A DNA stretch of 64,000 bases, from NCBI RefSeq assembly GCF_003751225.1, contig NZ_RJKE01000001.1, positions 3,658,001 through 3,722,000 on the forward strand. Reading direction: 5' to 3'. Of this stretch, positions 9,202-57,562 are shown piece by piece; positions within the stretch are counted from its first letter, which is position 1, and the number at the start of each line of letters is the position of its first letter. The notes beneath the pieces are model-generated. The model was given only the letters and a program-made list of their open reading frames with translations. It made no database searches and was not told the origin of the DNA. The translations under genes and the position numbers were made by a program. Origin of the DNA: Actinocorallia herbida (lineage in GTDB: Bacteria > Actinomycetota > Actinomycetes > Streptosporangiales > Streptosporangiaceae).

Positions 9202-9226
9202 TAAGTATGTGAGCATTCACTTGTTA
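9202..9226. promoter_or_regulatory. Regulon operator, site A
   Basis: TATGTGAGCATTCACTT with GTGA/TCAC half-sites, flanked by AAGT and GTTA. It lies between the divergent aldehyde dehydrogenase and D-aminoacylase-like genes and matches the motif found at ten other places in this window. Confidence 0.6.
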
Positions 9227-9315
9227 GCCCGAATGCTCGCCTCGATCGCTCGTCACGGTCCGGCCGCGTCAGTGCGCGGAGCCCGGACCGCCGGTGCCGA
9301 CCTCGCGAGGTGTTC

Positions 9316-10956
9316 ATGGATCTGCTGCTGCGCGGTGCCTCACTCATCGACGGCACGGGCGCCCCCGCGCGCCTCGCCGACGTCGGGGTGGAGGGAGGAC
9401 GCGTCGTCGCCGTGCGCGACCCGGGCGTCCTGAGCCCGGACGACGCCGCCGAGACCGTCGACCTCGGCGGCCTCACGCTCGCCCCCGGCTTCATCGACGT
9501 GCACACGCACTACGACGCCCAGATCCTGTGGGATCCCGACCTGACCCCGTCGAGCTGGCACGGGGTCACCAGCGTCGTCATGGGCAATTGCGGCTTCGGG
9601 GTCGCGCCGACCCGACCGGAGCACCGCGACGTCATCGTGCGCACGCTGGAGAACGTCGAGGGCATGTCGATGGAGGCCCTGGAGGCCGGGATCGACTGGT
9701 GCTTCGAGACCTTCCCCGAGTACCTCACCGCGATCGACGCGCGGCCCAAACGCCTCAACGTCGGCGCGTTCCTCGGGCACACGCCGCTGCGCCTGTTCGT
9801 CACCGGCGGCGAGGAGCGGGCCGCGACGCCCGCGGAACTCGACGCCATGCGCGAGGTCGTCCGCGAGGCGCTGGAGGCGGGCGCCCTCGGGTTCTCCACC
9901 TCGCGCCAGCCCGCCCACCAGGGCGCCTTCGGCCGCCCCGTGCCGAGCCGCTTCGCCGAGACCGACGAGGTCCACGCGCTCGCCGCGGTGCTGGGCGAAC
10001 TCGGCAAGGGCGTCCTTCAGGTGTCGATAGGCCCCGGCCTGTTCGTCGACCAGTTCTCCGACATGGCCACCCGCTACGGCATCCCCGTCACCTGGACCGC
10101 GCTGGTGGCCCGCGCCGACAAACCGGGCGCCGCGCTGCGCACGGTCGAACGGGGCGCGGCCCTGCCCGGCGAGGTCTACCCGCAGATCGCCTGCCGCCCG
10201 ATCGTCATGCAGATCGGCATGGCCGACCCGACGCCGCTCGCGGAGATCGACGAGTGGAAGGACGTCCTCGCCCTTCCCCGCGCCGAGCGGGAGGGCCTCT
10301 ACCGCGACGGGTCGTGGCGCGATCGCGCCCGCGAGAACACCCTCAAGGCGTGGGCGCACCGCTGGCCGAAGACCAGCGTCGAGGAGACGAACGCGCACGC
10401 CGACGCGGTGGGCGTCCCGCTCGACCGGCTCGCCGAGGAGCGCGGCACGACCCCGTTCGACCTGATGCTGGACCTCGCGCTCTCCGACGGCATGGCCACG
10501 CGGTTCCGGATCGTCCTCGACAACGACGGCGACGAGGAGGTCGGCCGACTGCTCGCCGACGACCGGACCCTGCTGGGCCTGTCCGACGCGGGCGCGCACG
10601 CCACCCAGCTCTGCGACGCCTGCTACTCCACCCACCTGCTCGGCCACTGGGTGCGCGAGCGCGGCGCGATCTCGCTGGAGACCGCGGTCTGGCGGCTCAC
10701 CGGCCACCCCCACCGCGCGTTCCGCATCCGCGAGCGCGGTCTGGTCCAGGAGGGGTTCCACGCCGATCTCGTCGCCTTCGACCCCGCGACGATCGGCACC
10801 ACGCCCGTGGAGCGGGTGCACGACCAGCCGGGCGGCACCGACCGCCTCGTCGTGCGCAGCACCGGCGTGGCGCACCTGTGGGTCAACGGCACCGCGGTCC
10901 GCGCAGGGGGAGTCGACCTCCCCGGCGTCGCTCCAGGCCGGCTCCTGCGCTCCTAG
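9316..10956 (+). CDS. Amidohydrolase, N-acyl-D-amino-acid deacylase (D-aminoacylase) family
   Basis: 546 aa from ATG 9316 (CGAGG 5 nt upstream); a GTG two codons earlier is possible. The metal-binding H-x-H is in FIDVHTHYDAQ, followed by GVTSVVMGNCG, and the C-terminal signature LGLSDAGAHATQ carries the conserved Asp. The final domain (RERGLVQEGFHADLVAFDP) is the typical urease-alpha-like composite beta domain. Family members deacylate N-acyl-D-amino acids or hydrolyse cyclic amides; in catabolic clusters like this one the real substrate is usually unknown. A paralogue is encoded at 36719-38425. Co-directional P450 follows after 29 bp. Confidence 0.88.
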   Translation: MDLLLRGASLIDGTGAPARLADVGVEGGRVVAVRDPGVLSPDDAAETVDLGGLTLAPGFIDVHTHYDAQILWDPDLTPSSWHGVTSVVMGNCGFGVAPTRPEHRDVIVRTLENVEGMSMEALEAGIDWCFETFPEYLTAIDARPKRLNVGAFLGHTPLRLFVTGGEERAATPAELDAMREVVREALEAGALGFSTSRQPAHQGAFGRPVPSRFAETDEVHALAAVLGELGKGVLQVSIGPGLFVDQFSDMATRYGIPVTWTALVARADKPGAALRTVERGAALPGEVYPQIACRPIVMQIGMADPTPLAEIDEWKDVLALPRAEREGLYRDGSWRDRARENTLKAWAHRWPKTSVEETNAHADAVGVPLDRLAEERGTTPFDLMLDLALSDGMATRFRIVLDNDGDEEVGRLLADDRTLLGLSDAGAHATQLCDACYSTHLLGHWVRERGAISLETAVWRLTGHPHRAFRIRERGLVQEGFHADLVAFDPATIGTTPVERVHDQPGGTDRLVVRSTGVAHLWVNGTAVRAGGVDLPGVAPGRLLRS

Positions 10957-10985
10957 CCTTACCGCCACCCCGTGAGGAGAGCCTA

Positions 10986-12161
10986 ATGACGGACGTGTAC
11001 TACGACCCCTACGACGTCGAGATCGACGCCGACCCCTATCCGGTCTATCGGAGGCTGCGGGAAGAGGCGCCGCTCTACTACAACGACAAGCACGACTTCT
11101 ACGCCGTCAGCCGGTACGAGGACGTCGAGGCGGGCCTGGGCGACCCGGCGACGTTCATCTCCGGCCGCGGCGCGATCCTCGAGCTCATCAAGGCGAACAT
11201 CGAGTTCCCGCCCGGCGTGATCATCTTCGAGGACCCGCCCCTCCACACCGTCCACCGCAGGCTGCTGTCCGGCATCTTCACCCCGCGCAAGGTGCTCGCG
11301 CTGGAGCCGAAGATCCGCGACTTCTGCGCCCGCAGCATCGACCGGACGGCCGGGACGGGCAGGTTCGACTTCGTCGCGGACCTCGGCGCGCGGATGCCGA
11401 TGCAGACGATCGGCATGCTGCTGGGGATCCCCGAGGCCGACCAGGAGGCCATCCGCGACCAGGTCGACGACTCCCTGCGCACCGAGGAGGGCAAGCCGAT
11501 GGAGCTCGACCTCGATTTCCTCGCGGGCGAGGCGTTCGGCGCCTACATCGACTGGCGGGCGGACCACCCGTCCGACGACATCATGACCGACCTGCTCCAG
11601 GCCGAGTTCGAGGACGAGACGGGCACCCGCCGGAGGCTCACCCGCGAGGAGATCCTCACCTACGTGACGATCGTGGCTGGCGCGGGCAACGAGACCACCA
11701 ACCGGCTCATCGGCTGGGCGGGCAAGGTCCTCGCCGACCATCCGGCCCAGCGCGCCGAACTCGCCGCGAACCACGCGCTCATCCCGAACGCGATCGAGGA
11801 ACTGCTCCGCTTCGAGCCTCCGGCCCACCACATGGCCCGGTACGTCACCCGCGACGTCGAGGTGCACGGCAGGACCGTTCCCGAGGGCAGCGTCATGATG
11901 TTCCTCGTCGCCGCCGCCAACCGCGACGGGAACCGCCACACCGACGGCGACGCCTTCGACATCCACCGCACGGTGGGCCCCCAGCTCACCTTCGGCCGGG
12001 GCACCCACTTCTGCCTCGGCGCCGCCCTGGCCCGCCTCGAGGGCAAGATCGCGCTGGAGGAGATCCTCAAGCGCTACCCCACCTGGGAGATCGAGACCGG
12101 CGCCAAGCTCGCCCCCACCTCCACCGTCCGCGGCTTCGAGTCCCTGCCCGCCCGCGTCTAG
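10986..12161 (+). CDS. Cytochrome P450
   Basis: 391 aa from ATG 10986, with AGGAG 8 nt upstream. Heme-binding loop FGRGTHFCLG with Cys343; I-helix AGAGNETT (Asn-Glu in place of the commoner Asp/Glu-Thr context); K-helix E-x-x-R in EELLRFEPP. Soluble, class I bacterial type, needing a ferredoxin and reductase; two 3Fe-4S ferredoxins are encoded elsewhere in the window (35501-35689 and 48172-48372). It probably hydroxylates a hydrophobic intermediate handled by the amidohydrolase upstream. I cannot assign the CYP family. Confidence 0.93.
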   Translation: MTDVYYDPYDVEIDADPYPVYRRLREEAPLYYNDKHDFYAVSRYEDVEAGLGDPATFISGRGAILELIKANIEFPPGVIIFEDPPLHTVHRRLLSGIFTPRKVLALEPKIRDFCARSIDRTAGTGRFDFVADLGARMPMQTIGMLLGIPEADQEAIRDQVDDSLRTEEGKPMELDLDFLAGEAFGAYIDWRADHPSDDIMTDLLQAEFEDETGTRRRLTREEILTYVTIVAGAGNETTNRLIGWAGKVLADHPAQRAELAANHALIPNAIEELLRFEPPAHHMARYVTRDVEVHGRTVPEGSVMMFLVAAANRDGNRHTDGDAFDIHRTVGPQLTFGRGTHFCLGAALARLEGKIALEEILKRYPTWEIETGAKLAPTSTVRGFESLPARV

Positions 12162-17578: not shown

Positions 17579-17602
17579 TGCGCGTGAACTCCTCCGCTTT
17601 GA

Positions 17603-17620
17603 GAGTGGGTACTCACTTAC
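17603..17620. promoter_or_regulatory. Regulon operator, site B
   Basis: GAGTGGGTACTCACTTAC; the reverse complement GTAAGTGAGTACCCACTC matches the shared motif. It is 25 nt upstream of the minus-strand amidohydrolase start and just past the stop of the SDR gene. Confidence 0.6.
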
Positions 17621-17652
17621 ATTAGGCGGGCGGGGCCTCGGCACGCAACCGC

Positions 17653-20149: not shown

Positions 20150-20213
20150 TCAGCAGTCTCCTTCCGAGGTGCTTCCGGGGGCGTTTTCGCCCGCCCCCAC
20201 TGTCTACATAAAA

Positions 20214-20233
20214 AAGTGAGCATTTGCTATCTT
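20214..20233. promoter_or_regulatory. Regulon operator, site C, with -10 element
   Basis: AAGTGAGCATTTGCTATCTT in the 128-bp gap between the divergent DUF35 and LLM genes. It ends in TATCTT, a good -10 for the plus-strand operon. It is preceded by an AT-rich run (TACATAAAAA). Confidence 0.6.
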
Positions 20234-20277: not shown

Positions 20278-21243
20278 GTGGCAGACGACCGCGTCGTCCT
20301 CGGGGCGGCGGCGATTCCCGAACCCGACCGCGACTGGCTGGCCGCCGTGGAGCGGCTGCCCATCGCGTCGGTCTGGCAGGGCGGGCATGTGCTGCCGCCG
20401 AGCGCCACCGGCGAGGCCATCACGAGGCTCGCCCTGATGACCGCCTGGACGGAACGGGTGAGAGTGGGCACGGCGGTGCTGATGCTGCCGCTCTACCACC
20501 CGGTCCTGGCGGCCAAGCAACTCGCCGACCTCGACAGCAGGTCCGGTGGCCGGGTCGTCGCGGGGGTGGGCATCGGCGGGGAGTTCCCGCAGGAGTTCGC
20601 CGCGATGGGCGTCCCGGTGAAGGAGCGCGGCGCGCGCGCCGACGAGGCGATCGACGTGCTGCGCAAGCTCTGGCGAGGCGGCCCGGTGAGTCACGGAGGC
20701 AGGTTCTTCGCCTTCGACGACGTCGACCTCCGCCCGGTCCGGCACGGTGCCGGCCCGGGGATGCGGCCGGGAGGCCCGCCCCTCGTGGTGTCCGGCCGGA
20801 AGGAGCCCGCGATGCGGCGGGCCGCGCGGCGCGGCGACGGGTGGATGCCCTATCTGGTGTCGCCCGAGGCCTATGCCAGGTCCGTTCAGACGATCAGGGA
20901 CGAGGCGGACGCCGTGGGCCGTGACCTCACGGGATTCGAGTGGACGGTCTACCTGTACTGCTCGGTGCGCGCCGACCGGGAGCGGGCCCGCGCGGACGTG
21001 GCGGGGTTCCTCGGGTCCGCGTACGGCGACAAGCCTCCGGAACTGCTCGATCGCATAGCCCCTTCCGGGACTCCCGAGGAGGTCGCCGCGCGCGTCCAGG
21101 CGTACGTGGACGCGGGGGCACGGCACATCGTGATCTCGCCCGCGGCCAAGGAGGACACCCTGGGGATCGTGCGGCTCGCCGCCGAGGAAGTGCTGCCGCG
21201 GCTGTCCGTCCCGGCCGCCGCCGTGCCCGGAGCGTCGGCGTGA
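20278..21243 (+). CDS. LLM-class (luciferase-like) flavin/F420-dependent oxidoreductase
   Basis: 321 aa from GTG 20278 with GGAGGAG 3-9 nt upstream. TIM-barrel luciferase-like pattern: VRVGTAVLMLPLYHPVLAAKQ, LDSRSGGRVVAGVGIGG, RADEAIDVLRKLW, and the C-terminal DAGARHIVISP. The family uses F420 or FMN to oxidise or reduce alcohols, ketones or other substrates. It heads a plus-strand operon with a fused CoA-transferase (4-bp overlap) and a SnoaL-like gene. Confidence 0.87.
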   Translation: MADDRVVLGAAAIPEPDRDWLAAVERLPIASVWQGGHVLPPSATGEAITRLALMTAWTERVRVGTAVLMLPLYHPVLAAKQLADLDSRSGGRVVAGVGIGGEFPQEFAAMGVPVKERGARADEAIDVLRKLWRGGPVSHGGRFFAFDDVDLRPVRHGAGPGMRPGGPPLVVSGRKEPAMRRAARRGDGWMPYLVSPEAYARSVQTIRDEADAVGRDLTGFEWTVYLYCSVRADRERARADVAGFLGSAYGDKPPELLDRIAPSGTPEEVAARVQAYVDAGARHIVISPAAKEDTLGIVRLAAEEVLPRLSVPAAAVPGASA

Positions 21244-23516
21244 GCGCGGCGCCCTGCGCGGGGCTGCGCGTCGTCGAACTCGCCGTCGGGGTGAGCGACC
21301 TCGGCCTCGGCCTCGCCGGGGGCGTGCCCGGCCTGCTGCTCGCCGATCTCGGCGCGGACGTCACCAGGATCGTCGGCGCCGTGCCCGTCCCGCTCGACGC
21401 GGACGTGCCATGGGGCCGTGCCTGGCACCGCGACAAGCGGATCGTCGCCACCGACGACCCGGGGACGGCCTTCGCGCTGCTGCGAGAGGCCGATGTCGCG
21501 CTCGTGTACGGGCCGGAGGAGGTGGTCGAACGGCGGGGACTCGGTTACCGCGACCTCGCGGAGGCCGATCCTTCCCTCGTGTACGCGCGGTGCCGTCCGA
21601 GCCGCACGGGCAAGGGCGAGACCGCCGACTACGGGTTGCTCGTGGAGGCGTCTGCCGGTCTCTGCACCCAGTTGGCCGGGCACCGCTCCGGCCCGGTGTT
21701 CGTCGACGTCAGGGCGTCCGGCGTCGGCACCGCCTCCCTGCTGAGCGTCTCGGTGCTCGGACTGCTGCGCCGCCGCGCGCTGACCGGCGAGGGCGGCTGG
21801 GCCGAGACCTCCCTGTACGACGGCATGCTCGCCACCCTCGGCTGCATGATCGGCCGTTCGCAGGCCGCGCCCCCCGAGGTCGAGTCCTACTGGGAGAAGG
21901 GCTCGACCTTCCCGAACTTCCTCTACCGCTGCGCCGACGGCGAACTGATCCAGGTCTGGTTCGGCGGCAAGGGCATGTACGCGTCCCTCCTCGACGTCCT
22001 GGGCGACGAGCCCAGCGAGGAGGGCTACTACACCGACCAGATGACCGGCCGTCTGGGCGTCCGCGCCCAGCGCTGGTCCTCCCTCTTCTCCCGCCGCCCG
22101 CGCGCGGAGTGGATCGAGGCCCTGCGCCGCGCGGGCGTGGCCTGTGAGCCGGTCCTCGCCCCCGGCGAGGTCCTGGCCGAACCGCACCTCGCCGAGATCG
22201 GCCTCGCCCTCACCCGCGATGAGGACGGCCACCGCTACGTCCTGCCGGGCTCACCGGTCTCGGTCTCTCCGCTCGCCGAAGCCATTTCGCCTCCGCCGAG
22301 TGCGGTCGAGGGCCCCGGCCTGCTCGCGGGACTGCGGGTCGCCGACTTCTCGGCCTTCGTGGCGGGGCCCCTCGCCGCCGAGGTGCTCGCCGATCTGGGG
22401 GCCGACGTCGTCAAGGTCGAGCCGCCCGGAGGCGAGGCGATGCGGGCCGCCGCCTACGCGGTCGCCGCCTGCCAGCGGGGGAAGCGGAGCGTGGCGCTCG
22501 ACATCGGGGCGGCCGAGGCCCGGCCCGCGGTCGAACGGCTGCTGGAGTGGGCCGACGTCGTCGTGCACAACTTCCGGGTGGGGGTCGCGGAGCGGCTCGG
22601 GATCGGCGCGGACACCGTCGCCCGGATCAACCCGGGCGCGGTCTACTGCCACGCGAGCGCTTTCGGCGACGTGGGACCGCGCGCCAGGTTCCCGGGCAAC
22701 GACGCGCTCATGCAGGCGGTCACCGGGTTCGAGACGGCGATCGGCGGGGCGGGCAACGACCCGATCGCGGCGACCTGGATCCCCGTGGACATGGCGGGCG
22801 GCTGGGTCGCGGCGGGCGGCATCCTGGCCGGGCTGGTCGGCCGCGCCGCCGACGGCAGGGGCCGCCGCGTCGTGACGAGCCTGCTCGGCGCGGGGATGCT
22901 CGCGCACAGCGGCGTCCACCTGCGCGACGGCGAGCTCGTGCTCGGTCCGTCCCTCGACGGGACGCAGACCGGATACGGGCCCGGCTACCGCATCTACGAG
23001 TGCGGCGACGGGGCGTGGCTGGCCGTCGTCGTCCCCGGCCCCGAGGTCTGGGCACGGCTCGGAGAGTCCGTCGGCGGACTGCCCTCCTACGCGCCGCTGC
23101 GCGGAGGAGCCTCCGACGAGGCGGCCCGTAAGGCGGAGGCGATCCTTGAAGCCGCGTTCGCGAGCGCGTCCGCCGCCGTGTGGACGGCCCGGCTGCGCGC
23201 CCTCGGCGTGCCCGCGGAACCGGTCGAATCCCTCGACCGGGACGGCTTCCGCGGCGCGATCCTCGACGATCCGGTGAACCGACAGACCGGACGTGCGGTG
23301 ACCTATCAGACGGCCGATTGGGGCGGATTCGAACAGATAGGTCCGCTCCTCCGCTACGGCCCCTCCGAGGCACCGCCCTCCGCCGCCGTCCGGCTGAGCC
23401 TTCCGCGCGTCGGCGAGCACACCGCCGAGGTCCTGGCCGAGATCGGCCTCCCCGAACCCGACATCACGGCACTGCTGACCGCCGGGACCGCCCGGCAACT
23501 CGAGGAGGACACGTGA
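21240..23516 (+). CDS. Fused double-domain class III CoA-transferase (CaiB/BaiF)
   Basis: 758 aa from GTG 21240, overlapping the LLM stop codon. Two CoA-transferase III units in one chain. The C-terminal unit (about 355-758) is canonical: GLRVADFSAFVAGPLAAEVLADLGADVVKVE and the catalytic-Asp motif PGNDALMQA with Asp488. The N-terminal unit (1-350) has a matching LLLADLGADVTRIV start, but at the catalytic position the motif reads ADYGLLVEA, with Gly132 where Asp is expected. It moves CoA between carboxylic acids. The fusion suggests an internal pseudo-dimer with one active site. Normal homologues are about 400 aa dimers. Confidence 0.85.
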   Translation: MSAAPCAGLRVVELAVGVSDLGLGLAGGVPGLLLADLGADVTRIVGAVPVPLDADVPWGRAWHRDKRIVATDDPGTAFALLREADVALVYGPEEVVERRGLGYRDLAEADPSLVYARCRPSRTGKGETADYGLLVEASAGLCTQLAGHRSGPVFVDVRASGVGTASLLSVSVLGLLRRRALTGEGGWAETSLYDGMLATLGCMIGRSQAAPPEVESYWEKGSTFPNFLYRCADGELIQVWFGGKGMYASLLDVLGDEPSEEGYYTDQMTGRLGVRAQRWSSLFSRRPRAEWIEALRRAGVACEPVLAPGEVLAEPHLAEIGLALTRDEDGHRYVLPGSPVSVSPLAEAISPPPSAVEGPGLLAGLRVADFSAFVAGPLAAEVLADLGADVVKVEPPGGEAMRAAAYAVAACQRGKRSVALDIGAAEARPAVERLLEWADVVVHNFRVGVAERLGIGADTVARINPGAVYCHASAFGDVGPRARFPGNDALMQAVTGFETAIGGAGNDPIAATWIPVDMAGGWVAAGGILAGLVGRAADGRGRRVVTSLLGAGMLAHSGVHLRDGELVLGPSLDGTQTGYGPGYRIYECGDGAWLAVVVPGPEVWARLGESVGGLPSYAPLRGGASDEAARKAEAILEAAFASASAAVWTARLRALGVPAEPVESLDRDGFRGAILDDPVNRQTGRAVTYQTADWGGFEQIGPLLRYGPSEAPPSAAVRLSLPRVGEHTAEVLAEIGLPEPDITALLTAGTARQLEEDT

Positions 23517-23911: not shown

Positions 23912-23920
23912 TCATCCGGC

Positions 23921-23974
23921 TTGACAGCCTCCCGCGCGGCGGGGAGGATAAATAACTGGGCGTTCACTTACTTA
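23921..23974 (+). promoter_or_regulatory. Promoter with regulon operator, site D
   Basis: TTGACA at 23921-23926 and AGGATA about 18 bp later form a likely promoter. It is followed by the operator ACTGGGCGTTCACTTACTTA at 23955-23974, which keeps the TCACTTACTTA half of the shared motif. Upstream of the amidohydrolase-ADH-SDR operon. Confidence 0.6.
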
Positions 23975-23998
23975 CGCGGGTTCACTGGGAGCGCGGCG

Positions 23999-25195: not shown

Positions 25196-25199
25196 GGGC

Positions 25200-26276: not shown

Positions 26277-26314
26277 CTGAAATTGTCCGGGTCATCGTCC
26301 AGGAGGTCGCGCTC

Positions 26315-33243: not shown

Positions 33244-33255
33244 GGAGCCCCCACC

Positions 33256-36672: not shown

Positions 36673-36698
36673 TAAGTGAGTACCCGCTTTTTTATGGC
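36673..36698. promoter_or_regulatory. Regulon operator, site G, with -10 element
   Basis: TAAGTGAGTACCCGCTTTTT followed by TATGGC, 20 bp before the D-aminoacylase-like gene start. With site F it makes the only double-operator region in the window. Confidence 0.6.
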
Positions 36699-42549: not shown

Positions 42550-43433
42550 CACGCCTCCTTGAACGCGGGGAGAACGGACTCCGCCCAGTCGTGCAGGAGC
42601 GGTGCGAGCAGGGGCCAGCGGACGAAGAGCCCCGGGGCCTCGCCGGAGGCGCGGGCCGCCTGCCGTTCCGGCCATTCGGCGTCGCCCCACGGCGGTTCGA
42701 CGAGCCGGGCGCCGGGCAGCAGCCGGGCCAGCTCCTCGGAGGTCTCGCGGCGGTGGTGGATGTCGGCGGTGCCGCTCCGGAAGACCAGTGCCGGGAGGTC
42801 CAGCTCGCGAGCCCGCCCGGCGGTCAGCCCCGGGACGGGTTCCGCGGCGGACGGGCAGTAGACCGCGAGCCAGCGCTCCATCGTGGCGATGAACGCGGCG
42901 GGGTCCTGCGCCAGGAAGCGCGCGCGGTTGCCGGGGTTGCGGGCGAGCACCTCCGACCAGGACGGCAGGTCCGCGACCGCCTCCATGCCGCCCTCCCAGG
43001 CCGCGCGGACGGACTCGCCGCAGTAGTGCATCCCCACCGACAGGAGCCCGTAGACGCCGCCGCTGATCCACCAGACGGCGAGGGCCGACGCGACGTCGGG
43101 GTGCCGCGCCGCCGCGAGGAGCGAGACCCGCGACCCGCCGGAGCCCGCCGCGATGACGGCCGGGCCGAGCCCGAGGTGCCTGAGCAGCGCCGCGAGCGTG
43201 TCCGCCTGCATCGCCGACTCGGACTCCCCGGTGAAGCACACATCCGATTCGCCGGTGTTGGGGCGATCCCAGATGAGGACCCGGTTACCGCGTTCGGCCA
43301 GCGCCCGCGCCGTCTCGCGGAGCCCCGGCGTGTCCTTGGAATCGCGGCCACCGGGGGTGAGCACCCAGGGGCGCCCCGCCTCGCCGATCACCTCGTAGCC
43401 GACCGTCAGTCCCTGCACCCTTGCTGTCGCCAT
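42549..43433 (-). CDS. Alpha/beta hydrolase
   Basis: 294 aa from ATG 43433. Alpha/beta-hydrolase fold with WVLTPGGRDSKD (oxyanion side), RVLIWDRPNTGESDVCF and nucleophile elbow AAGSGGSR, where the Ser is the likely nucleophile. The C-terminal His candidate is in LLHDWAESV. The DRPNTGESD segment is a pattern seen in C-C bond and ester hydrolases of catabolic clusters. Translationally coupled to the synthetase at 41101, which would trap the acid it releases. Confidence 0.83.
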   Translation of the reverse strand: MATARVQGLTVGYEVIGEAGRPWVLTPGGRDSKDTPGLRETARALAERGNRVLIWDRPNTGESDVCFTGESESAMQADTLAALLRHLGLGPAVIAAGSGGSRVSLLAAARHPDVASALAVWWISGGVYGLLSVGMHYCGESVRAAWEGGMEAVADLPSWSEVLARNPGNRARFLAQDPAAFIATMERWLAVYCPSAAEPVPGLTAGRARELDLPALVFRSGTADIHHRRETSEELARLLPGARLVEPPWGDAEWPERQAARASGEAPGLFVRWPLLAPLLHDWAESVLPAFKEA

Positions 43434-43460
43434 ACCCCGAAGCTACTATCCCAGGGGACA

Positions 43461-43483
43461 TAAGAGAATGCTCACTTACTTGA
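43461..43483. promoter_or_regulatory. Regulon operator, site H
   Basis: TAAGAGAATGCTCACTTACTTGA; the reverse complement reads AAGTAAGTGAGCATTC then TCTTATGTC, so the half-site plus TAT layout faces the minus-strand hydrolase gene. It lies between the divergent hydrolase and thiolase genes. Confidence 0.6.
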
Positions 43484-43519: not shown

Positions 43520-44707
43520 ATGAGCCGAGAAGCGGTGATCGTCGCGGGCGCCCGGACGGCGATCGGAACGGCGTTCCGGGGCTCCCTGGCCGACGTCGAC
43601 GCGATGGACCTCGCGACCCTGACCGTCGCGGAGGCGGTCCGGCGGTCGGGCATCGCGCCCGAGGAGTTCGACGACGTGGTGCTGGGCGAGTCCCTGTACG
43701 GGGGTGGCGCGATCGGGAGGTATGCCGCGATCGAGGCGGGTCTGGTCAACGCGCCGGGCCTCGCGCACAACCGGCACTGCGCGTCCGGCCTGGCCACCCT
43801 CCAGACCGCCGCGGCCTCCATCATCGCGGGCATGGACCGGGTCGTCGTCGCGGGCGGCGTCCAGTCGAGCTCCACGATGCCGAAGGTGAACCGGCGCGTC
43901 CCGGGCACCGAGGCGTGGACCGAGGACTGGCTCGCGCCCAGCCACCGCGAGACGCCGGACGCGCCCATCCGGGACATGACCATCACGGTCGGCTGGAACA
44001 CCGCGGTCAAGGCCGGGATCACCCGCGCGGAGATGGACGCCTGGGCCGTCCGCTCCCATGAGCGGGCCGTCGCCGGGATCGACGCGGGCTCCTTCGCCGC
44101 CGAGATCGTGCCGATCGAGGTGGCCCGCCGCGACGGCACGTCCTTCACGTTCGAGGTCGACGAGCACCCCCGGCGCACCTCCACCCTGGAGAAGCTCGCC
44201 TCCCTGAAGCCGCTGCATCCCGAGATCGAGGGGTTCGGCATCACCGCGGGCAACTCGGCGGGCGTCAACGACGGGGCCGCGGCCCTGGTCGTCACCGACC
44301 GGGAGTTCGCCGAGGGCGCGGGCCTGGCGCCCCTGGCCTTCGTGCGTTCCTGGGCCTCGGTCGGCGTGCCGCCCGCCGAGACGGGACTCGCCCCGATCCG
44401 CGCCATCCCCAAGGCGCTCGACCGCGCCGGACTCAAGGTCTCCGACGTCGACCTCTGGGAGGTCAACGAGGCCTTCGCCTCCGTCGCCGTGGCCGCCACC
44501 AAGGCCCTCGGCCTGCCGGCGGACACCGTCAACGTCCTCGGCAGCGGATGCAGCCTCGGCCACCCGGTCGCGATGACCGGCACCCGCATGGTCCTCACCC
44601 TGATCCACGAACTCCGCCGCCGCGGCGGCGGCACCGCCGTGGCCGCCATGTGCGCGGGCGGCGGCATGGGCACCGCCCTCGTCCTGGAGGTCCCGGCCCC
44701 GAGCTAG
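43520..44707 (+). CDS. Thiolase (acetyl-CoA acyltransferase)
   Basis: 395 aa from ATG 43520 (AGGAGCGGGAG upstream). Intact catalytic set: nucleophile Cys87 in NRHCASGL, His in VNEAFASV context and GHPVAMTG, and C-terminal Cys in MCAGGGMGTALVLE. The degradative or biosynthetic direction is not fixed by sequence; here thiolytic release of acetyl- or propionyl-CoA at the end of a beta-oxidation round is the natural role. Single gene, divergent from the hydrolase/synthetase pair. Confidence 0.93.
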   Translation: MSREAVIVAGARTAIGTAFRGSLADVDAMDLATLTVAEAVRRSGIAPEEFDDVVLGESLYGGGAIGRYAAIEAGLVNAPGLAHNRHCASGLATLQTAAASIIAGMDRVVVAGGVQSSSTMPKVNRRVPGTEAWTEDWLAPSHRETPDAPIRDMTITVGWNTAVKAGITRAEMDAWAVRSHERAVAGIDAGSFAAEIVPIEVARRDGTSFTFEVDEHPRRTSTLEKLASLKPLHPEIEGFGITAGNSAGVNDGAAALVVTDREFAEGAGLAPLAFVRSWASVGVPPAETGLAPIRAIPKALDRAGLKVSDVDLWEVNEAFASVAVAATKALGLPADTVNVLGSGCSLGHPVAMTGTRMVLTLIHELRRRGGGTAVAAMCAGGGMGTALVLEVPAPS

Positions 44708-44716: not shown

Positions 44717-44968
44717 TTGCAGGGATTCCTGCGGGGTGCCGTCGTGGTCGCGGCGGCATCCGGCGCGGTCGTCGCCGTGGTTCCGGCGTCGGCCGTGCCC
44801 AAGTGCGCGACCGGTTCTTGGCGGCTCGCCGCGGAGCAACCCGTGCTCACGTTCTGGGCCGACGGGATGAAGACGGTCGTTCGGGTCAACGGAAGGTCGG
44901 GCCGGCGGGCCGCCGCGCGGGTCACTGCCTGCGGCGGGCCGGCTCCAAGGGGGGGAAGAACCCCTTGA
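44717..44968 (+). CDS. Possible truncated small secreted protein
   Basis: 83 aa from TTG 44717, without a clear ribosome site. It opens with a convincing signal peptide (LRGAVVVAAASGAVVAVVPASA) followed by VPKCATGSWRLAAEQPVL and ends with ACGG and a basic tail. Its 3' end overlaps the 3' end of the convergent TetR gene by 47 nt. High GC3 supports former or present coding. Could be a functional mini-protein or a broken secreted-protein gene. Confidence 0.35.
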   Translation: MQGFLRGAVVVAAASGAVVAVVPASAVPKCATGSWRLAAEQPVLTFWADGMKTVVRVNGRSGRRAAARVTACGGPAPRGGRTP

Positions 44969-45641
44969 CGGTGCCCTCGCTGATGAGCGACACGGCCCGG
45001 TGGCGGTCGAAGCCCTTGCCGTGGTGGCTCTCCAGGGCGAGGACGAGGGCGATGCCCATGACGGCGCGGGCGGAGATGTCGGGGGACTCGAACGGGTAGC
45101 CGTAGCGGTCCTCGACCTGGCGCCAGGCCTCGGCCAGCCGGTCCATCGCGACGGTCAGGTTCTCCTGGTAGAAGCGCCGGGCCACCTGTGGGTCGCCGAA
45201 CAGCACGAGGCCGAGCAGCGGGAGGATCTCTTCCAGCGTCGAGATCAGCTGGCGGTACAGGCCGGTCATCGTGCGGAGCTGGCGCTCGGGGGTGAGCGGC
45301 TGCTCCCGGTCGACCGCCTCGGTGGCCGCGACGAGATCGTCGACCGCCTGCTTGAGCGGTTCCACGACGGCCTCGAAGAACAGCTGTTCCTTGCTCTCGA
45401 AGTGCCGGTAGATGACGCCCTCGCTGATGCCGCTGTGCTCGGCGATCAGCTTGATCGTGGTGCCGTTCATGTCGCCGGTCTCGATGAACGCGCGGCGTGC
45501 CGCGGCGAGGATCGAGCTCTTACGGGCCGCCGCGGTGAGGCGCCGCCGCGGCCGCTTCTCTGCGGCCTGCTGCGCGCCCTCGTCGGCGGGGTCCGCCGAA
45601 GGCTCGACCGCCGCTGTGGAGCCGACCGGCTTGGTGCTCAT
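44922..45641 (-). CDS. TetR-family regulator, candidate master repressor of the catabolic regulon
   Basis: 239 aa from ATG 45641 (GGGAG 7 nt upstream); a longer frame to 45707 would begin inside the operator. A 25-residue low-complexity N-terminus is followed by the HTH: RKSSILAAARRAFIETG, TTIKLIAEHSGISEGVIYRHF, ESKEQLFFEAV. The C-terminal domain is helical (LISTLEEILPLLGLVLFGDPQVARRFYQE). Operator site I lies 54-76 bp upstream of the start, so autoregulation is likely, and the same motif occurs at ten other promoters in the window. The ligand is probably an acyl-CoA or pathway intermediate. Confidence 0.87.
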   Translation of the reverse strand: MSTKPVGSTAAVEPSADPADEGAQQAAEKRPRRRLTAAARKSSILAAARRAFIETGDMNGTTIKLIAEHSGISEGVIYRHFESKEQLFFEAVVEPLKQAVDDLVAATEAVDREQPLTPERQLRTMTGLYRQLISTLEEILPLLGLVLFGDPQVARRFYQENLTVAMDRLAEAWRQVEDRYGYPFESPDISARAVMGIALVLALESHHGKGFDRHRAVSLISEGTVKGFFPPLEPARRRQ

Positions 45642-45694
45642 GCGGGTCTCCCGGTGACTGCTCCTCCACACGCGCGGAGGCCGCGGGCGCCGGA

Positions 45695-45717
45695 GGTGAG
45701 TGGGCACATACTTACAT
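45695..45717. promoter_or_regulatory. Regulon operator, site I, at the TetR gene
   Basis: GGTGAGTGGGCACATACTTACAT; the reverse complement ATGTAAGTATGTGCCCACTC is nearly the same as site B (AATGTAAGTGAGTACCCACTC). It is in the promoter of the TetR gene itself. Confidence 0.6.
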
Positions 45718-45872: not shown

Positions 45873-46802
45873 TCAGCCGCGCGCGGCGGCGCACTCCTCG
45901 GCGAAGGAGAGGACCCGCAGGTGGTAGGCGAGGGCGGTCCTGCCGAGACTGAGGTTGTGCCCCGCGTCGGCCTGCATCTCGGCGACGACCCGCGGCGCGG
46001 CGGTGAACAGCGCGGCGAGGTCGGCCAGGGCTTCGGGTCCGGTCTGCCACCACCGCTCGTGGTCGCCGAGGGTGAGATGGACGGGGACCCGCACCGCGGC
46101 GGCGTACCTGGGGAGCATCTCCTGCCAGCGGGGCCCTTCGACCGCCTCGTACGACGGGTTCGGGGCGAAGACCCGCAGTCCGCGGGCCACGGACTCCGGG
46201 TAGAGCCGCTCAGGCCCCCACAGGACGGTGTCGAGGCCGCTGGGCCGCTCACCGCGCCGGTGCCTGGCCATCACCTTCTCCGCTTCGGGGTGCAGGCGCC
46301 GTCCGGTCGCCGCGATCTCCACGCCGAGCAGGTCCGCGCCCCGCTCGTCCGCGGCGAGCTGCAGCGCCAGCTCCGTGCCCCGCGAGTGCCCGACGACGAA
46401 CAGCCCCGCACCGCGTGATCCGGGCGGGACGAGCGCGTCGAGCAGGCCGTGGACGAGGTCGACGCGGCGCCGCGCCGAGTCGGCGAACAGCCGCTCGTGC
46501 GGCGCGGAGGCGCCGACACCCGGCCGGTCCGGCGCCACCACGGTGAACCCGAGCGCGGAGGCGGTGCGCAGCAGTGACTGCCGGGGCAGCTCGGGCACGT
46601 CGAAGTACCGGCCGGTCGTCATGCCGCCGTGCATCGCGACGATGACGGCCCGGGGCGCGGGTGCCCGGCTGACCAGCGCCGACATCGGGATGCCCGCGAC
46701 GTCGACGATCTCGGGGGCGCCGGGCACACCGCGCGGCCGGGCCGCGCGGTCGGCCGGACGGCATGCCACCCCACGGGACATGCCGTCCGGAGACCGGCTC
46801 AC
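45873..46802 (-). CDS. Alpha/beta hydrolase
   Basis: 309 aa if it starts at GTG 46802, which overlaps the P450 stop (GTGA); ATG 46781 is a close alternative. Features: VIVAMHGGMTTGRYFD (oxyanion), VVAPDRPGVGASAP, nucleophile elbow VVGHSRGTELA, and general-base His in DAGHNLSLGR. Complete catalytic triad pattern. Last gene of the SDR-ferredoxin-P450-hydrolase operon; it probably hydrolyses an ester or activated ketone formed by the oxidative steps. Confidence 0.83.
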   Translation of the reverse strand: MSRSPDGMSRGVACRPADRAARPRGVPGAPEIVDVAGIPMSALVSRAPAPRAVIVAMHGGMTTGRYFDVPELPRQSLLRTASALGFTVVAPDRPGVGASAPHERLFADSARRRVDLVHGLLDALVPPGSRGAGLFVVGHSRGTELALQLAADERGADLLGVEIAATGRRLHPEAEKVMARHRRGERPSGLDTVLWGPERLYPESVARGLRVFAPNPSYEAVEGPRWQEMLPRYAAAVRVPVHLTLGDHERWWQTGPEALADLAALFTAAPRVVAEMQADAGHNLSLGRTALAYHLRVLSFAEECAAARG

Positions 46803-48175
46803 TGGCCGCTGAGCTCGGCCGCGGCCTTCCGCACGGTGACGGGTTCGGCGAGCCGCTGCTCGTCGCAGGCCTTCTGGAGGAGTTCGAGGGTCTCCGCGAG
46901 CCCGGGCCCGAGCCGCTTGCCGGGGGTGAACGTGGCGGGCAGGAACCGCATGCCGTTGATGACCGAGATGGTCTCGTAGTGCACGGCCCCCTCGGGGTCG
47001 CACACGAAGTCCGGCATCCGGTCGAGGACGGCGAGCAGCATCCGCTTGAAGACCGTCCGCGCGACGTTGGAGCCGATGCAGCGGTGGATGCCGAGGCCGA
47101 AGCTGGCGTGCCGGTTGCCCTCGCGGCCGAGTTCGATCTCGTCGGGGTTCTCGAACACCGCGGGGTCGCGGTTGGCCATCGCCCACGACAGCCAGAGGCG
47201 CTCGCCCTCCTTGAAGCTGATCCCGCCGACCGTGCAGTCCGCCGAGATCGTGCGCCCGTCCCCGACGGCCGGGGTGTAGAAGCGCAGGAACTCTTCGGTG
47301 GCCGAGTCGAGGAGCTCGTCGCGTTCGGCGCTGAGCCTCGTGCGCTCCTCCGGGTTCTCCGACAGCCACTCGATGGCGTGCGCGGTGAGCGCGGTGGTGG
47401 TGTCGAAGCCGCCGCCGATGAGCAGGCCGAGGACGCCGCGGATCTCGTCGTCGGGCTGGGCCTCGCCGTTGATCCGCGCGTTGATGAGCGCGTCGATCAG
47501 GCCGGGCCGCGGGTTCTCGCGGACCTCGGTGAGCTGCCGCGCGATCTCCGCCTGCATCGCCATGTGCAGCCCGCCGACCCGCATGATGTCGGGCGAGGTC
47601 ATCGGGGTGTAGATGACGGCGTGGGCGGGCTCGCAGTAGACCTCCCAGTCTTTGACGGGGATGCCGAGCATCGCCAGCGTGAAGACCGCCGGCACGATGT
47701 TGGCGAGGTCCTCGACGAAGTCGATGGAGCCCGACTCGATCTTCTCGTCGAGGCAGGCCCGGACCAGCTCGTCCAGCCAGGGGATCCAGCGGTTGATCGC
47801 GGCGGGCGACAGGTACGGGTTGAGCGCCTGCCGGTAGTGCCGCTGCTCGGGCGGGTCCATCTCCAGGAAGCCGCCGCGGCTGCCGCGGGCGCGCTGCGGA
47901 GAGGGGATGGAGATGCCCTTGTACCCGCGGCGCTCGCCCTTGACGTCGTGGTCGTTCGACAGGTGGTCGGCGTTGCGCGCCGCCAGCTCGAACACCTCGC
48001 GGTTCCCTGCGGCGACCCAGTGGCCGCCGTGCGTCTCGCTCCACGCGACGGGGCACTTGGCGTGCATCTCGTGGGTGATCTCCTCGAACCGCTCGCGGTA
48101 GCCGGGCGCGTGGCGGTCGAAGGCGTACGAAGGGCTCTTGCGCTCCTCGTCGCCCGGGAGGTCGTCGGTGCTCAC
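46799..48175 (-). CDS. Cytochrome P450
   Basis: 458 aa from GTG 48175, longer than the first P450 by an N-terminal extension and a C-terminal tail of about 40 residues. Heme loop FGLGIHRCIG with Cys366; I-helix GGGFDTTT (254-261); E-x-x-R in EEFLR (295-298). The start overlaps the ferredoxin stop by 4 nt, which pairs it with its electron donor. Likely hydroxylates a hydrophobic substrate; the SDR of the same operon would oxidise the alcohol. Confidence 0.93.
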   Translation of the reverse strand: MSTDDLPGDEERKSPSYAFDRHAPGYRERFEEITHEMHAKCPVAWSETHGGHWVAAGNREVFELAARNADHLSNDHDVKGERRGYKGISIPSPQRARGSRGGFLEMDPPEQRHYRQALNPYLSPAAINRWIPWLDELVRACLDEKIESGSIDFVEDLANIVPAVFTLAMLGIPVKDWEVYCEPAHAVIYTPMTSPDIMRVGGLHMAMQAEIARQLTEVRENPRPGLIDALINARINGEAQPDDEIRGVLGLLIGGGFDTTTALTAHAIEWLSENPEERTRLSAERDELLDSATEEFLRFYTPAVGDGRTISADCTVGGISFKEGERLWLSWAMANRDPAVFENPDEIELGREGNRHASFGLGIHRCIGSNVARTVFKRMLLAVLDRMPDFVCDPEGAVHYETISVINGMRFLPATFTPGKRLGPGLAETLELLQKACDEQRLAEPVTVRKAAAELSGQ

Positions 48176-48372
48176 GGGGCGTCCTCCACGGAGATGGCCT
48201 GCTCGGGGCAGGATCTGACGGCGGCGATCACTTTGCCCACCTGGTCGGCCGGGACGTCCGGGCTGACCGGGGAGGAGTGGCCGTCGACGTCGTCGAGCTC
48301 GAACATGTCGGGGGCCTTCATCGCGCAGAGGGTGTGCCCCTGGCAGCGTGTCTGATCGACGGTGACCTTCAC
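48172..48372 (-). CDS. 3Fe-4S type ferredoxin
   Basis: 66 aa from GTG 48372. Cluster ligands C-x5-C in CQGHTLC and the distal C-P in SCPEQAI; three Cys, so a 3Fe-4S ferredoxin as in P450 systems. Encoded between the SDR (22 bp) and the P450 (overlap). The start MKVTVDQTRCQGH parallels [13 protein letters not shown] of the paralogue at 35501. No ferredoxin reductase is encoded in the window. Confidence 0.9.
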   Translation of the reverse strand: MKVTVDQTRCQGHTLCAMKAPDMFELDDVDGHSSPVSPDVPADQVGKVIAAVRSCPEQAISVEDAP

Positions 48373-48394
48373 GGTGTGTCTCTCTCCTTCGCGC

Positions 48395-49255
48395 TCAGAC
48401 GTGGAAGTCGTGCCACTTGAGGTAGCCGCCGGCGTCGACCCGCAGCTGGAGGCCGGTGACGTAGCGGGCCTCCTCGGAGGCGAGGAACAGGATCGCGTTG
48501 CTGATGTCGACCGGCTCGATGTACGGGACGGGCATCGCCTGCTGGACGTAGAAGGCGCGTTCGGCGTCCTCGCGCGTCGGGTTCTCCAGGTCGGGCCGGA
48601 ACGACTTGTACATCGGCGCGCTCTGGAGCATCTGGGTGTTCACGTTCGTCGGGTGCACCACGTTGGCGCGGATCGAGCGCGGCGCGAGCTGGCGGGCCAG
48701 CTCGTGGGTGTAGTCGGCGAGGATGCGCTTGGCCCACGCGTAGCCGCTGCCGCCGGGGTTGGTGCCGGGGTTCTGCACCATGCCCTGCGACATGAGCGCG
48801 GCCGCGGACGCGACGGTGATGACGGACCCGCCCTCGGTGAGGTGGGGGAGCGCGCTCTGGACCGCGTTGATCGAGCCGAGCAGGTTGACGTTGACGACGT
48901 CGCTCCACGCCTGGAGCGGGGGGTTGCCGTGCAGGGGCGCGATACCGGCCTGGGCGACGACCACGTCGACCTTGCCGAGCTCGGCGATGCCCTGCTCCAG
49001 GGCCTCGCGGACCTGGGCGGCCTCGCGGACGTCGGCCTGCACGGTGACGATGCGCCGGCCCTGCTCCTCGACGAGGCGGGCGGTCTCCTTGAGGTCGTCG
49101 GGGGTGGACATCGGGTAGTCGACCGTCGCGTAGTCCTGGCAGAGGTCGACCGCGATGATGTCGGCCCCCTCCTGTGCCAGGCGGACCGCGTGGCTGCGGC
49201 CCTGACCGCGGGCGGCTCCGGTGATGAAGGCGACCTTTCCTTCAACGCGTCCCAT
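48395..49255 (-). CDS. SDR, mycofactocin-coupled type
   Basis: 286 aa from ATG 49255 (AAGGAG 7 nt upstream); the open frame to 49303 is ignored. N-terminus GRVEGKVAFITGAARGQGRSHAV and the following EGADIIAVDLC are diagnostic for the SDR subfamily that uses tightly bound NAD recycled by mycofactocin. Catalytic Ser in VASAAAL, Tyr-x3-Lys in YAWAKR (YAWAK). A large insertion after VDLC is also typical. If correct, the organism makes mycofactocin, and this alcohol oxidation is coupled to that redox carrier. First gene of the P450 operon. Confidence 0.87.
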   Translation of the reverse strand: MGRVEGKVAFITGAARGQGRSHAVRLAQEGADIIAVDLCQDYATVDYPMSTPDDLKETARLVEEQGRRIVTVQADVREAAQVREALEQGIAELGKVDVVVAQAGIAPLHGNPPLQAWSDVVNVNLLGSINAVQSALPHLTEGGSVITVASAAALMSQGMVQNPGTNPGGSGYAWAKRILADYTHELARQLAPRSIRANVVHPTNVNTQMLQSAPMYKSFRPDLENPTREDAERAFYVQQAMPVPYIEPVDISNAILFLASEEARYVTGLQLRVDAGGYLKWHDFHV

Positions 49256-49390
49256 GGGGTGGCTCCTTGCTCGGGGCGGAAGAGGGGCGGCGGTCGAGCA
49301 CATGTTCGAGTCTGAAATTTTCGTCTCGAAAGAAGCTCGATTCCGATTGCGAGAACCATACTCTCATGTAGGACGGAAAACCAGGCTTGA

Positions 49391-49409
49391 TGAGTGTCCG
49401 CTCACTCCA
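49391..49409. promoter_or_regulatory. Regulon operator, site J
   Basis: TGAGTGTCCGCTCACTCCA, the most symmetric copy: GAGTG and CGCTCACTC. It lies between the divergent SDR/P450 operon and aldehyde dehydrogenase/CoA-transferase operon, followed by an AT-rich TTAAATGG. Confidence 0.6.
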
Positions 49410-49443
49410 TTAAATGGTTCCCACCCATATCCGAGGAGGACCG

Positions 49444-56400: not shown

Positions 56401-56409
56401 GGAGCCTCC

Positions 56410-57195
56410 ATGGGATACATCGAATACCACGTCGCGGACAAGATCGCGACGATCACCCTGAACCGCCCCGAAGCGGCCAACGCCCAGAACATGCAGCTTC
56501 TGGACGAGCTCGACGCGGCCTTCACCCGGGGCGCGTCGGACGAGGACGTCGCGGTCATCGTCCTGCGCGCGGAAGGCAAGCACTTCTCCGCCGGGCATGA
56601 CCTCAAGAGCGGCACACCCGCCCCGGAGAAGATCACCCTCGACTGGATCTATGCCGCGGAGGCCCGGCGGTATCTGGAGTACTCGCTGCGCTGGCGGAAC
56701 ATCCCCAAGCCGACGATCGCGGCGGTGCAGGGCCGCTGCATCGCGGGCGGTCTGCTGCTGTGCTGGCCGTGCGACCTCATCATCGCCGCCGAGGACGCGC
56801 TCTTCTCCGACCCCGTCGTGACGATGGGCATCGGGGGAGTGGAGTACCACGGTCACACGTGGGAGCTGGGCGCGCGCAAGGCCAAGGAGATCCTGTTCAC
56901 CGGCCGCCCCCTGACGGCAGAGGAGGCGGAGAAGGTCGGCATGGTCAACAGGGTCGTCGCGCGAGCGGACCTCGACGCCGAGGCGCGCGCCCTCGCCGCC
57001 CAGATCGCCGAGATGCCGTCGTTCGGCCTCCGCCAGGCCAAGCGCGCGGTCAACCAGACCCTCGACGTCCAGGGCTTCTACGCCGCCATCCAGTCCGTCT
57101 TCGACGTCCACCAGACCGGCCACGGCAACGCCCTGTCCGTCGGCGGCTACCCCATCCTCGTCCGGCTCGAGGAGATGAAGACGAAGATCAAGTGA
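56410..57195 (+). CDS. Enoyl-CoA hydratase/isomerase (crotonase) family
   Basis: 261 aa from ATG 56410 (TGAGGAG upstream). Crotonase motifs LNRPEAANAQN, GKHFSAGHDLKSG and AAVQGRCIAGGLLL. The first catalytic Glu position reads DPVV (Val), while the second (AKEILFTGR) is kept, so it may not be a standard hydratase. Its His-rich loop GVEYHGHTWELG is unlike the crotonase at 30157. Last gene of the 52965 operon. Confidence 0.88.
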   Translation: MGYIEYHVADKIATITLNRPEAANAQNMQLLDELDAAFTRGASDEDVAVIVLRAEGKHFSAGHDLKSGTPAPEKITLDWIYAAEARRYLEYSLRWRNIPKPTIAAVQGRCIAGGLLLCWPCDLIIAAEDALFSDPVVTMGIGGVEYHGHTWELGARKAKEILFTGRPLTAEEAEKVGMVNRVVARADLDAEARALAAQIAEMPSFGLRQAKRAVNQTLDVQGFYAAIQSVFDVHQTGHGNALSVGGYPILVRLEEMKTKIK

Positions 57196-57562
57196 GGACG
57201 GCCCGCCGGGCCGGTGTCCGCGTCGTGCGGACCGCGGCAGCCCGGCCCGCGGGCGGTGGGGCGGCGGATGGGGCAGGGCGCGAGGAGCGGCGCCCGGCCC
57301 TGTCCGCCGCATGCGTAAAAAAGCCCGCTGACCTGCGGCAACGTGTTCCGATCGTGCCCCGGCGGCCTCTTGACGGAAGGCCCTGGAGCCCACGATGGTG
57401 AACGGAGTGAGCGTTCGCGAACTTATGCTCCGCTGAGGGACCCGTGAACGCTCCGCGGTGCCGTGCGTCCGCCCGTCGGGCGGTGCGGTCCGCCCATCCC
57501 GGCTCGCGCGTGAGCCGGGACCACCCGCCGAATTCGGGGGCCACATCATGAGGAGCGACCCC
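57196..57562. other. Intergenic region with promoter and operator K
   Basis: About 370 bp. Left part contains an imperfect 19-bp-arm hairpin (arms GGCGGATGGGGCAGGGCGC near 57,260 and its partner near 57,289), probably the terminator of the upstream operon. Right part has a TTGACG (57370) and the regulon operator K. No gene seen. Confidence 0.5.
57370..57429 (+). promoter_or_regulatory. Promoter region with regulon operator, site K
   Basis: TTGACG at 57370-57375 with GATGGT 18 bp later is one promoter candidate. Operator GGAGTGAGCGTTCGCGAACT at 57404-57423 is followed by TATGCT, a second -10 candidate at the fixed 12-nt distance from AGTGAG. Upstream of the binding-lipoprotein gene. Confidence 0.58.

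Follow-up and report, generated by a model that had tools for sequence, protein, structure and literature searches.

The locus and its operator sites

The DNA analysed here is a 64,000-nucleotide stretch of the Actinocorallia herbida chromosome (contig NZ_RJKE01000001.1, positions 3,658,001 to 3,722,000), called the window below and numbered from its first letter; it represents 64 kb of a 9.80 Mb chromosome and carries a coenzyme A (CoA)-dependent catabolic gene cluster. Eleven copies of one palindromic sequence, sites A to K, stand in front of genes of this cluster, and one of them precedes g37, the gene of a TetR-family regulator. The comparisons given below strongly support a conserved regulon that is predicted to contain its own TetR gene and that has an unexpected operator. 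A preliminary description of the same DNA had listed eleven inverted repeats sharing the core AGTGAGYR-NN-YRCTYRCT, and all eleven were found where it had placed them; the shared motif is real, but its true unit is a 24-bp palindrome centred 2 bp away from the centre of that 18-mer core. The sites are as follows; scores are those of the symmetric matrix described in the next section.

Operator A, 9203..9226, + strand: score 32; between the divergent g7 (aldehyde dehydrogenase, − strand) and g8-g9 (amidohydrolase and cytochrome P450, + strand)
Weak second operator adjoining A, 9174..9197, no strand assigned: score 12.9
Operator B, 17599..17622, − strand: 21 bp ahead of g13 (amidohydrolase_2); kept before g13 in 2/2 relatives
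Operator C, 20210..20233, + strand: between g16-g15-g14 (DUF35/ChsH2-like, Ltp-type thiolase-like, SDR) and g17-g18-g19 (F420 luciferase-like, fused CoA-transferase, SnoaL-like)
Operator D, 23950..23973, − strand: ahead of g20-g21-g22 (amidohydrolase_2, zinc alcohol dehydrogenase (Zn-ADH), SDR); 2/2 relatives
Operator E, 33214..33237, + strand: ahead of g28 (DitZ-related amidohydrolase_2); overlaps the g27 stop by 10 bp
Operator F, 36622..36645, + strand: between g31-g30 (SDR, ferredoxin) and g32 (amidohydrolase_3)
Operator G, 36670..36693, + strand: second site in the divergent promoter of F, 48 bp from F
Operator H, 43458..43481, − strand: between g35-g34 (hydrolase, acyl-CoA synthetase) and g36 (thiolase)
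Operator I, 45694..45717, − strand: promoter of the TetR gene g37
Operator J, 49388..49411, − strand: score 19.6; between g41-g40-g39 (SDR, ferredoxin, P450) and g42-g43 (aldehyde dehydrogenase, CoA-transferase)
Operator K, 57401..57424, + strand: score 21.3; ahead of g49 (Peripla_BP_6 lipoprotein); 2/2 relatives

The weak place at 9174 is probably a twelfth site, because its counterpart in A. populi scores 19.1. The 52 genes of the window were called by a codon-usage script; the Pfam scan covered 47 of them (all except g2-g5 and g52) and NCBIfam some. All eleven site centres lie outside called genes, while the non-coding share of the window is 10.3%, and the only encroachment, that of E on the preceding gene, is the one reported initially. 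The genes that stand behind the sites are listed below.

7674..9137, − strand: g7, aldehyde dehydrogenase
9316..12161, + strand: g8, amidohydrolase_3, and g9, P450
16361..20149, − strand: g13, amidohydrolase_2; g14, SDR; g15, Ltp-type thiolase-like; g16, DUF35/ChsH2-like
20278..27103, + strand: g17-g22, luciferase-like, fused CoA-transferase and SnoaL-like, then amidohydrolase_2, Zn-ADH and SDR
33238..34464, + strand: g28, amidohydrolase, best solved relative DitZ (8uyr)
35501..36528, − strand: g31, SDR, and g30, ferredoxin
36719..38425, + strand: g32, amidohydrolase_3
41101..43418, − strand: g35, hydrolase, and g34, AMP-binding synthetase
43535..44707, + strand: g36, thiolase
44922..45641, − strand: g37, TetR-family regulator (P0001; TetR_N 8.6e-15), proposed to bind all the sites
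46799..49255, − strand: g41, SDR; g40, ferredoxin; g39, P450
49444..52106, + strand: g42, aldehyde dehydrogenase, and g43, CoA-transferase III
57578..58948, + strand: g49, substrate-binding lipoprotein

Fifteen genes stand directly behind the window sites. When co-directional followers are included, the set comprises five amidohydrolases (g8, g13, g20, g28 and g32), two aldehyde dehydrogenases and two P450s, one of these with a ferredoxin and an SDR, as well as Ltp/DUF35, luciferase-like, CoA-transferase, synthetase, thiolase and binding-protein genes, so that the gene classes named in the preliminary description do stand behind sites.

Definition of the operator and chance controls

The operator unit is AAGTAAGTGAGCGCTCACTTACTT, with arms of ten around a centre of four; this is the symmetrised majority of the eleven window sites, and its palindromy is built in, since both orientations of each site were aligned. 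A reading in which two overlapping palindromes 4 bp apart would hold a dimer of dimers was dropped, as both registers follow from the symmetry of a single palindrome.

With at most 3 mismatches, the 18-mer core matched the window 40 times, both strands and shifted registers being counted, against a mean of 10.1 in 100 dinucleotide shuffles (standard deviation 4.3, largest 26). A symmetric matrix built from the eleven sites gave those same eleven as the best-scoring places of the window, from 19.6 to 34.5, with a runner-up of 12.9 at 9174, a ranking that is circular given that the matrix was made from those very sites; leave-one-out scores ran from 13.5 to 31.9, nine sites keeping 24.6 to 31.9. 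At a score of at least 19, the 11 matches of the real matrix compare with a mean of 0.11 and a maximum of 3 for 200 column-permuted matrices. A sequence-only covariance model run on the same genome returned 14 matches, all in the window (7 of the 11 sites, on both strands), at E-values of 0.76 to 3.3, which we think are poor because the background was not G+C-rich; this model was replaced by the matrix and by a degenerate pattern.

Conservation of the sites in related genomes

We then examined nine regions of related genomes, all picked because they hold the TetR gene, which served as bait: A. populi, Actinomadura craniellae, A. physcomitrii, Actinomadura sp. CNU-125, Thermomonospora echinospora, Parafrankia soli, one Streptosporangiales metagenome-assembled genome (MAG) and two other genomes. 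In their 306,718 bases, the window-only matrix at a score of at least 20 found 58 sites, against a mean of 0.22 and a maximum of 5 for 100 column-permuted matrices. Although intergenic DNA makes up 9.4% of these bases, 56 of the 58 are found in it, and 57 stand at most 250 bp upstream of a gene. In Parafrankia soli, which belongs to another order (Frankiales), sites surround the TetR gene as well.

The comparison of orthologues supports the earlier proposal of one regulon under one control. Orthologues were defined by at least 55% identity, at least 70% coverage and a start at least 260 bp from the edge of the region, and a site was counted when at most 250 bp upstream. On this basis, 52 of the 55 orthologues of the fifteen directly controlled genes have a site upstream, versus none of the 50 orthologues of other cluster genes. 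Taken site by site, the operator is found at 5/5 orthologues of g7 and g8 (operator A), at 4/4 for operator C, in all six relatives for operator E (Parafrankia soli among them), at 12/13 orthologues of g31 and g32 (operator F) and at 9/10 of g35 and g36 (operator H); operator J is present in A. populi, the sole relative where it was checkable.

The sites are islands of conservation in the five promoters that were aligned, with one to five relatives each. Identity inside versus outside the sites is 0.83 versus 0.25 for A plus 9174 (A. populi being the sole genome aligned), 0.94 versus 0.40 for C (two relatives), 0.82 versus 0.36 for F and G together (five relatives), 0.73 versus 0.46 for H (four relatives) and 0.68 versus 0.37 for I (four relatives, one of which is misaligned through a miscalled start).

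The TetR-family regulator and other candidates

The regulator meant by the preliminary description is the gene at 44922-45641, g37; the other TetR gene of the window, g1 (118-699), has no site nearby. The helix-turn-helix (HTH) of g37 matches PF00440 at 8.6e-15, with 54.7 bits for a cut-off of 24; its AlphaFold model is poor (pLDDT, the predicted local distance difference test, 62.8). Orthologues are 74-92% identical in seven relatives and 73% in Parafrankia soli. An orthologue is held by 7 of the 150 genomes of the family, the present one included; no relative at 1e-20 was found in 395 other genomes of a phylum sample, only 7 candidates per genome being scored, and a plasmid search gave one match, at 31%.

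Within the family, the sites and the regulator go together. The 24-mer, at most 2 mismatches being allowed, occurs 9, 11, 12, 7, 17, 0 and 1 times in the seven TetR holders, against a mean of 0.85 and a maximum of 4 in the 143 non-holders (Mann-Whitney p 7e-4). Dense sites, i.e., at least seven, are seen in 5/7 holders versus 0/143 non-holders (Fisher 3.5e-8, for a cut picked after the fact). As dense sites occur only with this gene, which has a site in its own promoter, g37 is the likely regulator of these sites. One holder, the Streptosporangiales MAG G135 (6.2 Mb), has 17 good sites, the highest number among the 150 genomes; its TetR contig carries only five sites at a score of at least 18.

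The sites could instead belong to another DNA-binding protein in or near the cluster, namely the PucR pair g10/g11, the TetR g1 or the GntR found in the clusters of some relatives. The sites are present in the nine relatives' regions although g10, g11 and g1 have no orthologue there (at least 55% identity). As for GntR, it occurs in only three of the nine regions (A. populi, P. soli and T. echinospora), and the sites are present without it in other relatives, among them A. craniellae and the MAG; its gene may have moved in the present genome, where a 53% relative of the A. populi protein lies at 2.886 Mb, as close as the T. echinospora gene (53%). By comparison g37, present in all nine regions by choice as the bait, has an own-promoter site here (site I) and in eight of them. 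We consider it very improbable that one of these other regulators owns the sites.

Two observations concern the places of these genes. The tandem PucR-type regulators g10/g11 (window 12308-14801) lie within the cluster and have no orthologue in the relatives' regions. The gap at window 27104-28079 is where A. populi and P. soli carry a GntR-family gene beside an acyl-CoA dehydrogenase operon, T. echinospora having it near this place; no GntR gene was found in the window, and the family was assigned by Pfam for the A. populi gene only.

A second locus and other genomic places

The sites of the preliminary description all lie in the window; the regulon is predicted to reach beyond it. A degenerate 24-mer pattern, allowed at most 3 mismatches, gave 25 forward places genome-wide versus 4 for its reversed control. 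This pattern was drawn from 55 sites, those of the window included, and covers 48 of them, so that only the places outside the window are independent. There are 24 distinct places: 11 in the window, 4 at 4,036,687-4,039,594 and 9 elsewhere.

The four grouped places mark a second locus at 4,036,687-4,046,148 (L094, L095), 321 kb beyond the end of K (3,715,424). Five of its genes, coding for a Rieske oxygenase, aldehyde dehydrogenase, P450, amidohydrolase and indolepyruvate-type ferredoxin oxidoreductase, have counterparts of 72-84% identity that adjoin the main cluster of A. populi and A. craniellae or lie inside it, and sites are found there too; the locus also has an EthD-domain gene. Counterparts of the aldehyde dehydrogenase (73%) and of the P450 (60%) lie near the TetR gene in Parafrankia. 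By its genes and sites, the second locus is predicted to belong to the regulon. Because A. populi and A. craniellae have these genes and sites next to or inside their main cluster, we infer that the regulon was split here, or joined in these two relatives, with its operators retained.

The nine outlying places look like operators of other regulators or chance matches; four of them have AAGCGCT(T/C) centres, and some are near other TetR genes. SlmA-box-like palindromes stand near other TetR genes at 5,585,406, 6,863,580, 1,027,106 and 3,744,123, and are perhaps the own operators of those TetRs, which would make up a wider group of related codes. The first of these (score 24.5) was not counted in the regulon, as it stands between two other TetR genes.

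The operator matches the SlmA box

The motif had initially been left without a name. The operators of KstR and KstR2 are indeed absent: their consensus sequences are AACNNGTT and CAAGNNCTTG, and by inspection neither is contained in the 24-mer. A name is nevertheless available. The window majority matches SBScons of Escherichia coli SlmA, AAGTAAGTGAGCGCTCACTTACGT (PMC4423959), at 23 of 24 positions, 12/12 in one half-site and 11/12 in the other. The window matrix gives 36.4 to SBScons, 30.2 to SBS17 and 12.5 to SBS12, scores that were reached by 0, 0 and 2 permutations, respectively (100,000 each). By its letters, the predicted operator is thus the SlmA-box consensus, i.e., a motif that already has a name.

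Among the matches listed, full-text literature hits to variants of the core included at least five SlmA papers, beside lac-operator and unrelated ones. The core GTGAGCGCTCAC is also that of the symmetric lac operator. A LacI-type regulator was considered on this account and rejected, given that the flanking AAGTAA arms are conserved; no LacI family was found in the 47 of 52 genes scanned with Pfam, and the unscanned g2-g5 and g52 have no orthologue in the relatives' regions.

The finding raises the question of whether g37 is an actinobacterial SlmA that would act in nucleoid occlusion at these sites and have no role in transcription. The near-identity of the operator to SBScons speaks for it; the two proteins share a TetR-type HTH. 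The rest of the evidence speaks against it. By similarity to E. coli SlmA, g37 ranks 23rd of 109 places with 20.4 bits, it did not come out as an SlmA orthologue, and the likeness is confined to the HTH (17/45 residues). The FtsZ-contact residues F65 and R73 of SlmA are not retained, being E94 and D102 in the ungapped alignment and P95 and L103 in the BLAST gapped one; R73D is a defective SlmA variant (PMC3573117). The sites are grouped in catabolic promoters, 15 of the 24 genome-wide places lying in two catabolic loci, and not spread chromosome-wide as SlmA sites would be. Judged by these residues and alignments, g37 is not SlmA, and a nucleoid-occlusion role is extremely improbable.

It may nonetheless be that g37 uses the same DNA code as SlmA without belonging to its family. 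SlmA T33 and E45 are retained in g37 as T62 and E74. T33 is reported as a DNA-binding residue of SlmA (PMC3573117), as are T31 and E43 of Vibrio cholerae SlmA, whose numbering is two lower (PMC5519180); the shared T33/T62 is no proof of a shared reading of DNA, because the V. cholerae T31A variant still bound DNA (PMC5519180). The recognition-helix E was found, together with R, in one of 23 parsed TetR loci (two of them badly parsed; 30 fetched), and its rarity among TetRs is a hint only. A bolder view, which we hold to be rather unlikely, is that the SlmA box represents a TetR code, old or recurrent, which both proteins read through a shared S-E-x-x-x-Y-R-H-F helix, SlmA being a former metabolic repressor that would have kept its DNA code and swapped ligand sensing for FtsZ binding. 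Weak overall similarity favours pure convergence of g37 and SlmA on the 24 bp.

Proposed mode of control

In 52 of 104 site-gene pairs, a −10-like hexamer, TANNNT, lies against or across the edge of the operator (a hexamer count only); the mean is 6% for windows shifted outward, and the reversed hexamer gives 19%. Since the bound protein would cover the core promoter, control is likely to be by repression. Release of the repressor by a pathway metabolite is the usual logic of TetR regulators. With high confidence, we propose that g37 represses itself and about fourteen other putative transcription units of the CoA-dependent catabolic cluster through AAGTAAGTGAGCGCTCACTTACTT, and that a metabolite releases it. 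Without substrate, a TetR dimer, or a pair of dimers, would sit over the core promoter and block RNA polymerase. Binding of a compound of the pathway, which may be an isoprenoid acid of terpenoid or steroid-like type or the corresponding CoA ester, would release the repressor and so switch on together the P450s, ferredoxins, amidohydrolases, dehydrogenases, CoA-transferases, synthetase, thiolase and uptake lipoprotein. The second locus at 4.036-4.046 Mb would be under the same control.

One could also imagine that g37 activates, or acts both ways, rather than simply repressing. V. cholerae SlmA directly activates the chb genes from an SlmA box (PMC5519180), a case that resembles the present one in that such a box directly controls catabolic genes, but there a true SlmA activates one operon, whereas the present cluster has several operons and would be autoregulated. 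Moreover, no −10-like hexamer adjoins the operator in half of the site-gene pairs. In the remaining pairs, the site lies over or against such a hexamer, as is usual for repressors, and the regulator gene has its own operator; we regard activation as quite unlikely.

Several points weigh against a single metabolite-released repressor acting at all these sites. The pairs just mentioned that lack a hexamer are one of them, and A+T-rich flanks account for part of the hexamer signal, as the 19% control indicates. Operators J and K are weak in the leave-one-out scoring (13.5, rank 14, and 17.3, rank 12). Three of the 55 orthologues have no site, namely g32 in Parafrankia, g36 in the MAG and the TetR gene of G115. 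Two of the seven holders, G032 (0 sites) and G115 (1 site), are without dense sites when 2 mismatches are allowed; a single site precedes the TetR gene in G032 (score 21.4), and one lies behind it in G115 (score 29.5), the TetR match of G115 spanning residues 78-238 only, with the HTH not included. Finally, neither in the window nor in the orthologues checked do the acyl-CoA dehydrogenase/enoyl-CoA hydratase operons carry a site. The site-less operons of the window lie at 28080-33223 (g23-g27) and 52899-57195 (g45-g48); the latter holds a sixth amidohydrolase, g45, followed by acyl-CoA dehydrogenases/enoyl-CoA hydratases (g46-g48).

Substrate clues and known systems

The nearest solved relatives of the products give a lead only, towards a putative terpenoid or steroid-like substrate. 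That of g28 is DitZ (8uyr, 4.3e-69), and that of g15 the lipid-transfer protein 6ok1 (1.1e-53). The g39 P450 is nearest to P450cin (1.6e-51), then to CYP125MRCA (1.4e-42) and P450cam (1.3e-38), which are cineole, steroid and camphor enzymes, respectively. Moreover, g16 has ChsH2-type domains, g34 matches best, in NCBIfam, a model for bile-acid CoA ligases, though far below cut-off (315 vs 650 bits), and the nearest solved relative of g20 is an uncharacterised hydrolase.

There is some likeness to the dit diterpenoid genes: g28 is related to DitZ, and P450s, a Rieske oxygenase, a CoA ligase and thiolase-like genes are likewise part of the predicted regulon. The comparison with dit covered the amidohydrolase only, and steroid-type relatives occur in this cluster too. 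KstR and KstR2 are similar in kind, each being a TetR repressor over a CoA-dependent catabolic set with Ltp/DUF35, P450 and acyl-CoA dehydrogenase genes; the match of g37 to KstR2 in the PDB search covers the HTH only (3e-4, residues 39-91). The other PDB relatives are distant: 3bhq, annotated merely as a transcriptional regulator, is matched over residues 37-215 (5.7e-11), and TtgR over the HTH region at about 1e-8. DarR is likewise an actinobacterial TetR that acts on a palindrome, but its operator, ATACT(N)4AGTAT, is another sequence (PMC10636190).

Further genes lie within or beside the cluster. A thioester-domain/DUF5979 protein gene (window 38660-40690) is found within it and has no orthologue in the relatives' regions. 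Beside it, window 59147-63463 holds a GMC oxidoreductase that weakly resembles cholesterol oxidase (75 of 850 bits), followed by a xanthine-dehydrogenase-type gene.

Significance

Among the literature matches listed, which cover subscription journals thinly and are thus weak evidence, there was no report of this regulon or of an SlmA box in actinobacterial catabolism. The analysis provides a candidate regulator and operator, together with a list of targets, for a catabolic cluster that occurs in several Streptosporangiales genera and partly in Parafrankia. As the second locus illustrates, searching with the operator can bring up pathway genes that are missing from the cluster, and the substrate could be assayed directly by its ability to release the repressor from the 24-mer. 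That the predicted operator coincides with the SlmA box bears, more generally, on how TetR proteins with unrelated jobs may come to share a DNA code.

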